In this document: positions 17 through 27,338 of the stretch, in pieces | How positions within the stretch are numbered: the first letter of the stretch is position 1 | How the letters are laid out: every line of letters begins with the position of its first letter | Virus record (IMG/VR): IMGVR_UViG_3300019828_000483 | Span: 1 to 27,528 of that record | From: a virus | Direction: 5' to 3' (one strand) | DNA: 27,528 nucleotides | Program-made: the position numbers and the translations under genes | The notes under the pieces: generated by a model | Seen by the model: the letters and a program-made list of their open reading frames with translations, nothing else | What the model was told of the DNA's origin: nothing | Databases searched by the model: none

Positions 17-398
17 AACATTGTTCCCTATAATTAAAGATAACGGTACAATGTTATGAACAATTCAACTACTTAGAGTACAATGTTCACTACAATGTAA
101 CGATATAAGCCATACCTATAGTAGGGTCATACTGTTTGGAGGGCTTAGAAGGGCTGTGAGAGCCTCGCTAAGTTGTTGATATTGTATAGCTCTTAGTATA
201 TTAATAAGATTACAGGTAGATACAGTGTTCAATACAATGTTCGGAGATTCCAGAGATTTTGATAGAGAGTTTTTAAATTGAAGGGGGGTGGGTCAAAAAA
301 TCAAAGCTGTAGGATGTGTGTAAGGGTGCAACAGATACCCTACGCAATTTTTGATTAACTTCTTCCTATAGAACATTGTTAGTAACATTGTACCGTTA
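17..398. repeat. Array of paired ACAATGTT half-sites in the non-coding left end
   Basis: No gene is seen from 1 to 488. Exact ACAATGTT (or its complement AACATTGT) starts at 17, 48, 80, 234, 372 and 384; near matches start at 60 (ACAATTCA), 92 (ACAATGTA) and 222 (ACAGTGTT). Eight of the nine form pairs whose starts are exactly 12 bases apart: 48/60, 80/92, 222/234 and, in the opposite orientation, 372/384. The 16-mer TAACGGTACAATGTTA at 41-56 recurs as an exact inverted copy at 383-398. Such phased direct half-sites look like a protein-binding array. Position directly before terS suggests a packaging (pac/cos) site bound by TerS; a replication iteron array or regulator operators are alternatives. 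The repeats are seen; the role is inferred. Confidence 0.85.
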
Positions 399-424: not shown

Positions 425-462
425 TTGACTAACCCTTATATAATTTTTTAAAATATTATATA
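425..462 (+). promoter_or_regulatory. AT-rich palindrome and possible promoter before terS
   Basis: A TTGACT hexamer at 425-430 is followed by an AT-only tract. Within it TATATAAT (437-444) is mirrored by ATTATATA (455-462), an 8-bp perfect inverted repeat with a 10-base spacer. TATAAT- and TATTAT-like hexamers occur at 439 and 454, but neither lies 16-18 bases from TTGACT, so a standard sigma-70 promoter is not clearly formed. The tract could be a promoter, a melting region or a transcript hairpin for the late operon. Confidence 0.3.
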
Positions 463-488: not shown

Positions 489-1163
489 ATGACCATGCCA
501 ATACCTATACCAATTAAAAATGATGGAGAGATTGAGAGAAACGAGGCAGAGTTTATAATGGACTCCACTCTTAAGGACAAACATAGAAGAGAGCCTACTA
601 TCTTGGCTTTCATAAATTCTTTCATGAGGTGTAAAAGTATTAAGCAAGCTTGTGATGAGTCAGGTATAAAATATTCTGTTGGTTATTCTTATCGTCATCG
701 TAAAGACATTGCTAATTGTATAACTAAGCTCATTGGGCTTTCGGCTGTGAAGTATGGTTACGATGCGACTGAAGTGTTTGAGAGAGCCAAGGAGATAGCA
801 GAGTTTGATCCTATTGAAGTAATGAATCCAGATGGTACTTATAAAAGTAATTTATATAATGTCTCTCCTGAGGCTCGTCGATGTATTAAAAAGATGAAGG
901 TTAAAAATATATGGTCTAAAGAGAGTGACATAAATGGAGTCGAGACTAAAATTATTATTGGTGAGATGATAGAGTATGAGTTCCACGACAAGATGAAAGG
1001 TATTGAGCTTGCAGGTAAAGAGAAAGAGATGTTTAAAAATACTACGAAAGTTGAACACTCTGTTACTAAAGACATGGCTAATTTATTATTAGCTTCGGCT
1101 AAGAGAGCTGATGACCAAGTTAAAACTATTACACAAGCCGAGGTTATAGATGTTACTCCATAA
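489..1163 (+). CDS. terS: Terminase small subunit (TerS)
   Basis: This 224-aa protein should be the DNA-recognition subunit of the packaging motor; it would bind the packaging site and hand DNA to TerL. The N-terminal third (about residues 35-80) is a helix-turn-helix-like region (repeated short helices around SIKQACDESGIKYSVGYS). The middle holds the DP-(x)n-PDGTY and 'SPEARRCIKKMKV' segment, and the C-terminal third has the EYEFHDKMKGIELAGKEKEM pattern, all typical of terminase small subunits in which residues near 'K..ALE.LGRHLGLF' close the fold. A GAGGA ribosome site ends 7 bases before the ATG. It is the first gene after the repeat array at 17-398, which is a natural candidate for its target. 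The family call rests on these patterns and on the position upstream of TerL; no search was run. Confidence 0.8.
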   Translation: MTMPIPIPIKNDGEIERNEAEFIMDSTLKDKHRREPTILAFINSFMRCKSIKQACDESGIKYSVGYSYRHRKDIANCITKLIGLSAVKYGYDATEVFERAKEIAEFDPIEVMNPDGTYKSNLYNVSPEARRCIKKMKVKNIWSKESDINGVETKIIIGEMIEYEFHDKMKGIELAGKEKEMFKNTTKVEHSVTKDMANLLLASAKRADDQVKTITQAEVIDVTP

Positions 1164-26223: not shown

Positions 26224-26403
26224 ATGAACAAAAGCTACTTAACATCTAAAACATTATGGACTTCGTTAATAACATTGTTATTACCATTAAGTCCTGAGCT
26301 TATGGAATTAGCTAAAGAGAATCCTGAAATAGCTACAACTATTGTAGGTTTAGTTTTCGGTATTCTTAGATTCTTCACTAGTAAGAAGTTAGGTAAGAAG
26401 TAA
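26224..26403 (+). CDS. Holin-like membrane protein, 59 aa
   Basis: A 59-aa protein with two hydrophobic segments: TLWTSLITLLLPLS near residues 10-23 and TTIVGLVFGILRFFT near 39-53, separated by an acidic turn (PELMELAKENPE) and closed by a basic tail KKLGKK. 'SKT.W.....ALL' at the start and 'I..ILRF.T.K..G' at the end are a pattern I associate with small phage holins, which time lysis by opening the inner membrane. AAGGAGGAG 5 bases before ATG 26224 is the strongest ribosome site of the window. The stop overlaps the next ATG. Confidence 0.65.
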   Translation: MNKSYLTSKTLWTSLITLLLPLSPELMELAKENPEIATTIVGLVFGILRFFTSKKLGKK

Positions 26404-26648
26404 TGACTAAGATAATCTTAGAATTATTATTAGGTGGGATGCACATCTTCTCTGATGAGAGACGTAGACATTTCTCTAAAGAGTTAAGAGAGTTAGACAC
26501 TGAAGTTAAGAAGCAAGAGAACGCACGTTTTCCTGATTACAACGGTGACAAGTTAGGACTTGCTAAAGAAGCTCTATCAACTTTCTTAGTAGCTTACAAA
26601 ACTGAGTTCGATATGGAACTTGAAAAGAAGGAGACGCAAAATGCTTAA
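26403..26648 (+). CDS. Hypothetical soluble protein in the lysis cluster
   Basis: An 81-aa, helical, charged protein without signal or membrane segment. Apart from a short hydrophobic start (KIILELLLGGMHIF) it is rich in Glu, Lys and Arg (SDERRRHFSKELRELDTEVK). I see no lysozyme, amidase or endopeptidase motif, so it does not fill the missing endolysin role. The ATG overlaps the holin-like gene's stop (TAATG), and the end overlaps the next gene by 8 bases. Function unknown. Confidence 0.65.
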   Translation: MTKIILELLLGGMHIFSDERRRHFSKELRELDTEVKKQENARFPDYNGDKLGLAKEALSTFLVAYKTEFDMELEKKETQNA

Positions 26649-26961
26649 GCTTATTATGATTGTAACATTGTTGTTAACTTCGTGCAGTTCTATATCAGGT
26701 GAGTGGGGACCGTACAAGCGTACAGGTGTTGCTCAGTCTAAAGAGGTGTGGCATTTCTGTAATAAAGAGTTACATGGTGAAGCTCTCCATGGGACAGGAG
26801 TTTGTTATCCTGCTCAAGAGTGTAAATTTAGAAAGACTATTCTTGGTAACGAGAAAAGAGAGTGCAGAACTAAAATGTTATTTTGTAAGTGGGGAGACGT
26901 ACAATGTCTTCACGATAACAATATTTTTAACAATGTTATTTTGAACAAAGGAGTTCAGTAA
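26641..26961 (+). CDS. Cysteine-rich lipoprotein, 106 aa
   Basis: A 106-aa lipoprotein: basic start (Lys3), hydrophobic core LIMIVTLLL and lipobox L-T-S-Cys15. Serine after the cysteine would allow outer-membrane sorting in the usual Lol rule. The mature part has seven further cysteines (such as HFCNKEL, GVCYPAQEC and LFCKWGDVQC), so disulfides are likely. AAGGAG 8 bases upstream favours ATG 26641. Outer-membrane lipoproteins in phage lysis clusters can be spanin partners or receptor-blocking exclusion proteins. The cysteine-rich, globular look fits the latter better than a short Pro-rich Rz1. Confidence 0.75.
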   Translation: MLKLIMIVTLLLTSCSSISGEWGPYKRTGVAQSKEVWHFCNKELHGEALHGTGVCYPAQECKFRKTILGNEKRECRTKMLFCKWGDVQCLHDNNIFNNVILNKGVQ

Positions 26962-27338
26962 TGAAAGGTTTTATTTTAATGGTTTGTTTAATGTTAGTCG
27001 CATCTTGTTCACTATTTGAAAGTGCCAAGAAGCCTGTAGTTAAGAAAGCTTCTACTATTGCTAAAGAATTATCAGTTAAACATTTAAGTTGTGAAACTGG
27101 TGATGCTGTTTATGCTGACGTAGAAAAACAACTTAACAAAATGCTTAAGGTTAAGAGTGAAGGTTTTAAATCAATTGGTGGAACATTGTGTTTACTATCT
27201 GTAGGTCCAGTGATTGCTGAATTAATTGATTTAGGAAATAAAGAGTTACCAGAATCATGGTCCAAGGATGGATGTTCATTAGAAGGATTTTCAGGTGATG
27301 CTTCAGATTTGGCAAACAAACTCTGCGGTAAGTTATAA
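26961..27338 (+). CDS. Lipoprotein, 125 aa
   Basis: A 125-aa lipoprotein with Lys2, the hydrophobic core GFILMVCLML and lipobox V-A-S-Cys16. The mature chain starts with a flexible basic stretch (ESAKKPVVKKAST), followed by a helical, cysteine-bearing domain (Cys in 'HLSCETGDA', 'GTLCLLS', 'DGCSLEG' and near the C-terminus). GGAG is 8 bases before the ATG, which overlaps the previous stop (TAATG). It is the last gene before the strong hairpin at 27341. As with the gene before, it may act in lysis or alter the host outer membrane; no family was recognised. Confidence 0.7.
   Translation: MKGFILMVCLMLVASCSLFESAKKPVVKKASTIAKELSVKHLSCETGDAVYADVEKQLNKMLKVKSEGFKSIGGTLCLLSVGPVIAELIDLGNKELPESWSKDGCSLEGFSGDASDLANKLCGKL

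Follow-up and report, generated by a model that had tools for sequence, protein, structure and literature searches.

Palindromic sites upstream of terS in an uncultivated podovirus family, probable operators of an early helix-turn-helix regulator

Background

The divergent control regions of phage lambda, with the operators OL and OR, carry multiple sites for a single repressor of the phage. The stoperators of mycobacteriophages also provide several sites for a single phage repressor (PMC6550527, PMC9283540) and are described as asymmetric and dispersed through the genome. Small XRE/HTH antitoxin-repressors offer a second point of comparison: MqsA reads AACCT-N3-AGGTT (PMC4894380), and the HigA2 operator overlies the -35 and -10 promoter elements (PMC11006873). 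Restriction-modification controller (C) proteins of the C.Esp1396I type are small HTH dimers that bind GAC/GTC boxes around a short spacer, with cooperativity between adjacent dimers (PMC3758141). Finally, the iteron origins of plasmids and phages are built from tandem direct repeats; some of the phages considered here have tandem direct repeats of 16-20 bp.

The array described in this study resembles the lambda operators and the stoperators in offering multiple sites that would serve one phage repressor. Unlike stoperators, the sites here are palindromes that keep to a single region and, in contrast to phage immunity systems, no integrase or evidence of lysogeny was found here; a TerL profile search of GTDB genomes returned no relatives and no prophage. 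With MqsA and HigA2, the locus and its candidate reader share the HTH fold, dimer-type palindromes and a predicted operator over -35/-10, but here many sites occur in one region, where those systems have one or few, and the palindrome is shorter. The C proteins are alike in being small HTH dimers on short palindromes; no restriction-modification genes are implied here, however, the palindromes are paired 12 bp apart and the likeness is one of fold only. Compared with iteron origins, copy number in some relatives falls as low as one to four, the motif changes independently of the primase-helicase and GC skew is unsupportive. A literature search found no phage iterons in proximity to terS.

Results

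The window (the whole stretch of DNA analysed), a virus record of 27.5 kb, represents part of the genome of an uncultivated podovirus. Judging by its portal, capsid (GP7) and terminase proteins, this phage is related to the epsilon15-like phages, and the closest isolates have, as best matches, a TerL about 34% identical and a major capsid protein about 39% identical. The early arm of this phage, including its own HTH gene, lies outside the contig. In relatives, the intergenic gap between a divergent early arm and the terS-led late arm is filled by the array. No Rfam match and no tRNA were found in the window. The features up to and including terS are as follows.

17 to 25: site AACATTGTT, a full AACAWTGTT palindrome
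41 to 56: TAACGGTACAATGTTA, outer copy 1, in inverted repeat with 383-398
47 to 55: site TACAATGTT, whose claimed partner at 60 (ACAATTCA) is degenerate
79 to 99: 12-bp pair TACAATGTTCACTACAATGTA, with a matching pair region in contig L007
221 to 241: 12-bp pair TACAGTGTTCAATACAATGTT, both members of which are exact in L007 (2870-2890)
about 280 to 359, plus strand: conserved single-copy G-rich element (GGGGGGTGGGTCAAAAA ... AATTTTTGATT), which goes with terS and is separate from the putative operator array
372 to 392: 12-bp pair AACATTGTTAGTAACATTGTA, the end of the array nearest terS
383 to 398: TAACATTGTACCGTTA, outer copy 2, inverted, in inverted repeat with 41-56
425 to 454, plus strand: weak promoter-like TTGACT-18-TAAAAT before terS
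489 to 1163, plus strand: terS, terminase small subunit (Terminase_2, phrog_51), first gene of the late arm

Sites in the window

The word ACAATGTT occurs in six exact copies spanning 17-391, which start at 17 (minus strand), 48, 80 and 234 (plus strand) and 372 and 384 (minus strand), and no other 8-mer in the window clusters as densely. Order-2 Markov simulation of 382 bases gave a mean of 0.019 copies under whole-window composition and 0.065 under local composition, with maxima of 1 and 2, respectively, in 3000 draws. The excess over chance reported in the initial annotation is thus borne out, with 0.02-0.06 copies expected. That annotation had also grouped the copies into four pairs with starts 12 bases apart, of which the pair at 372/384 is exact on both sides, while those at 80/92 and 222/234 carry one mismatch each, in the second member (ACAATGTA) and the first member (ACAGTGTT), respectively; at 48/60 there is no pair, since position 60 differs from the word at three bases. 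The inverted copies of TAACGGTACAATGTTA said to link the outer pairs are indeed exact and sit within a 24-nt inverted repeat that is 92% complementary.

The word itself is the core of AACA-W-TGTT, often GAAC-N3-GTTC, a palindrome save for its central base. Whether a copy is scored as direct or inverted is, therefore, mostly a matter of the central A or T, and each claimed 'half-site' is already a complete dimer-type site. The proposal of one dimer reading direct half-sites a helical turn apart does not survive this reinterpretation; a 12-bp pair would instead correspond to two adjacent dimers.

The array in relatives

The start of the window cuts into the array, a longer version of which is known from the near-identical contig L007, where the upstream continuation comprises five 18-bp iterons TGAACATTGTAGTCTTAA and a further 12-bp pair, followed by leftward small genes. 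In relatives the array is nearly confined to the divergent intergenic region: AACA-N-TGTT occurs 18 times in the 3 kb before terS and three times elsewhere in G003, and 10 times against three in G001. Such enrichment of repeated palindromic sites at a control region is as expected for operators of an HTH regulator. Arrays reach 20 or more sites with tandem iterons, which are present in L007, G001, G017 (as AACATAGTTAAGT) and others and absent from G005 and G039; tandem direct repeats of 16, 18 and 20 bp are found in some relatives. At the other extreme, the 48 kb of G005 contain a single AAACAATGTTT, which lies some 70 nt ahead of the first early gene. Six of the 24 phages together have 14 consecutive 12-bp spacings, where 1.8 were expected and 5000 simulations gave seven at most. 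The 12-base phasing noted in the window consequently recurs across the family, but it is not strict, as spacings of 13, 16, 18, 20 and 30-32 are also present.

The motif differs among phages with its form kept. Arms of GAAC or TAAC are found in G001, G003, G025 and G026, AAAC in G028 and G005, and TAC in G004, G010, G027 and G035, while the motif of G024 is CNACANTGTNG. Such differences between one phage and another suggest that the reader is encoded by the phage. In G002 (L064), dense GATGTAGAGATGTAG / TTACATATC repeats at about 26.1-27.4 kb replace the AACAWTGTT array, and no palindrome was resolved in these repeats.

Placement over promoters

Early promoters were called as consensus matches, and in relatives, since the window has no early arm. 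In G001, G003, G025 and L022 a site spans the -35 hexamer together with the spacer in a sigma-70-like promoter (TTGAAC, N16/17, TATTAT-like) and begins 54-63 nt ahead of the start codon of the first early gene; G005 comes near this arrangement, and L007 and L015 have looser versions of it. On the terS side there are four promoter-like matches against 2.8 expected. A late promoter with a site at its -10 element, attractive in L015 and L016, matches poorly in the window and was set aside.

Candidate readers in the early arm

Close together in the early arm are encoded two DNA-binding proteins, a ribbon-helix-helix (RHH)/winged-helix protein of about 180 residues and an HTH protein of about 70. 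The closest PDB matches of the latter, by sequence and fold, include HigA2 and MqsA, and its relatives also include C.Kpn2I and Aca1, all four being dimeric operator binders. The HTH protein of G005 passed the cut-offs for both MqsA_antitoxin (44.3 bits, cut-off 30) and HTH_3 (35.4, cut-off 23), those of G001, G002 and G003 scoring below them. The larger protein, exemplified by L077:13797-14327 (minus strand) and its homologs, has a CopG-like ribbon-helix-helix joined to a winged-helix domain. Short tandem repeats, noticed as repetitive translations (TVTATA..., FRSLFRSL...), lie directly upstream of its gene in G001 (1-204; L057) and G026.

When the HTH proteins were sorted by the recognition-helix residue that we aligned to residue 33 of the 434 repressor, Leu accompanied GAAC/TAAC arms in five phages (G001, G003, G025, G026 and G039), Tyr accompanied AAAC arms in two (G005 and G028) and His accompanied TAC arms in three (G004, G027 and G035), an association across about ten phages whose classes were refined during the analysis and whose relatedness is only partly controlled. 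Outside these classes, G024 (His; CNACANTGTNG) is a loose fit and G002 (Tyr, plus other helix changes) has no clear palindrome. In a Prim-Pol tree, G026 (Leu) groups with G005 (Tyr) and G024 (His), while G002, in which helix and motif have both changed, falls inside the Leu clade; on these placements we argue that the association is not the effect of a single clade.

A prediction made in advance was that, if the HTH protein is the reader, G038-G043, which are neighbours by DNA polymerase and lack AACAWTGTT, should also lack QAVxLW. The helix found was PQAVRLW, and the prediction failed as worded. In G039, four GAAC-N3-GTTC palindromes, recognised after this failure and sharing the arms though not the AWT centre, are packed into the 400 bp that immediately precede the RHH-HTH operon, while the remaining 46.7 kb hold two, a distribution that fits the same arms being read. 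G039 (L272-L274), like G040, G041 and G043, combines the same early module (RHH, HTH, Prim-Pol and polymerase) with an unrelated late module, in which, for G039, no TerS or TerL of the window family was found; this amounts to a module exchange.

A G-rich element linked to terS

Within the G-rich element of the window, GGGGTGGG is nearly invariant among relatives. With E values of 3e-4 or lower, a profile of 16 copies matched 27 distinct contigs, upstream of terS and on the terS strand, about a dozen of them outside the set from which the profile was built; weaker matches occurred in others. The same search gave no convincing match in G026 or G028 and found the element absent from G038-G045 and other polymerase relatives, and an exact-pattern scan of viral contigs returned family members only. 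An RNA element was considered and rejected, there being no consensus pairs and no RNA structure. Presence with the terminase, and absence where that module differs, make the element a candidate cos/pac or late-control site.

Most relatives have a site at the position equivalent to 372-392, after the G-rich element. Just upstream of terS in G003, G004, L013, L040, L034 and L016 there is, in addition, a tandem unit of about 35-45 bp in two or three copies, consisting of a AAATTTTGAC-like sequence, about 20 nt and then a site.

Discussion

On balance, the sites are probably operators of the phage-encoded HigA2/MqsA-like HTH protein of about 70 residues, lying in the central control region of an uncultivated podovirus family; of the readings put forward in the initial annotation, regulator operators, listed there as an alternative, are the best supported. 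An HTH dimer encoded in the early arm would bind each 9-13-bp palindrome (T)GAAC-AWT-GTTC(A), and dimers on sites 12 bp apart, lying on nearly the same face of the helix, could cooperate. Through the site over the early promoter, rising levels of the protein would switch the early genes, among them probably the operon of the regulator itself; the additional sites would sharpen or buffer this response, and the terS side may be a further target. We infer binding, the direction of regulation, cooperativity and any effect on terS from sequence comparison, and by the same reasoning the HTH protein of the window phage would be of the Leu type. Against this assignment count the failed prediction for G038-G043, the small sample of phages with G024 and G002 fitting loosely or not clearly, and the weak promoter matches beside terS. 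In addition, a pair of HTH dimers would have little room at a spacing of 12 bp, which may be better suited to an RHH protein, and the array is bigger than a simple promoter switch requires.

The same operators could, with a smaller though appreciable probability, be read by the neighbouring CopG-like RHH/winged-helix protein, either alone or in opposition to the HTH protein as a CI/Cro-like pair. The two genes adjoin in most relatives; the best solved sequence match of the RHH protein is the plasmid repressor CopG (E 0.03), and its model shows a helix-helix plus winged helix. In the Arc/CopG/MetJ family, RHH dimers suit nine-base palindromes about 12 bp apart, a geometry like that of the paired sites here, and four of five phages, on our reading of the alignment, combine the strand residues K-x-F/Y with the AACA motif. 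G025, however, has an AACA array yet different strand residues, and the RHH assignment itself depends on weak profile scores. Moreover, G028 has an array and an HTH protein but no detectable RHH protein, and for this reason the HTH protein is preferred as the reader, short of proof.

It is unlikely that the sites are iterons of a replication origin, bound by a phage initiator such as the winged-helix-like C-terminus of the Prim-Pol/helicase or the RHH protein. The tandem direct repeats of some relatives, the AT-rich and intergenic location of the array, the conserved Prim-Pol/helicase of the array-bearing phages and a cumulative GC-skew minimum at or near the array in most genomes would all suit such an origin. 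The skew, however, follows transcription: of five genomes, four show it reversed across the early-arm primase block, which reads leftward, and in the fifth it vanishes there, and no switch in strand composition beyond transcription was found; as skew tracks gene orientation, its minimum was dropped as evidence. The Prim-Pol/helicase is strongly conserved (54-71% identity) while the motif changes, which makes it a less likely reader, and the single site of G005 and the four of G039 also sit poorly with iterons.

We give still less weight to the notion that an early-regulator site beside the G-rich element directly gates packaging initiation or late transcription; if true, one locus would couple the early switch to genome packaging.

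Recognition of the sites by TerS as pac or cos sites, the first guess in the initial annotation, is very improbable. The array does adjoin terS, a site follows the terS-linked G-rich element at a near-constant distance in most relatives and several of them carry two or three copies of the unit AAATTTTGAC-N20-site. Packaging sites should, however, occur only with their cognate terminase, and G039 has sites (palindromes without the AWT centre) but no homolog of the window-type TerS or TerL, the strongest argument against TerS as the reader. Conversely, L019 has a TerS 67% identical, yet ACAWTGT does not occur in the 1.5 kb that precede terS; on these two cases TerS was rejected as the reader. 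Furthermore, the site arms appear to follow the HTH helix, and it is the G-rich element, not the sites, that stays with terS. That element thus appears the better packaging-site candidate than the ACAATGTT sites, and the packaging idea may apply to the stretch at about 280-359, which falls in the same span and was missing from the initial annotation. Binding of the sites by a host protein, or their being functionless repeats, is equally improbable, given that the change of motif between phages appears to go with a phage protein and that placement and enrichment are far above chance.

Two functions would then be interleaved in one intergenic region, the early-regulator sites and a terminase-linked single-copy element. 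An uncultivated phage family thereby gains a regulator-operator pairing that is open to test and whose natural variants suggest an association between one helix position (Leu, Tyr or His) and the outer operator bases.

A second cluster of the motif lies at 26271-27190 of the window, within small coding genes where the late arm ends, with three copies of AACAWTGTT (26271, 26664 and 26929) and two more ACAWTGT cores. Codon usage of membrane/lipoprotein segments may account for part of it; three AACAWTGTT inside 700 bp occurred in 0 of 300 simulated sequences.
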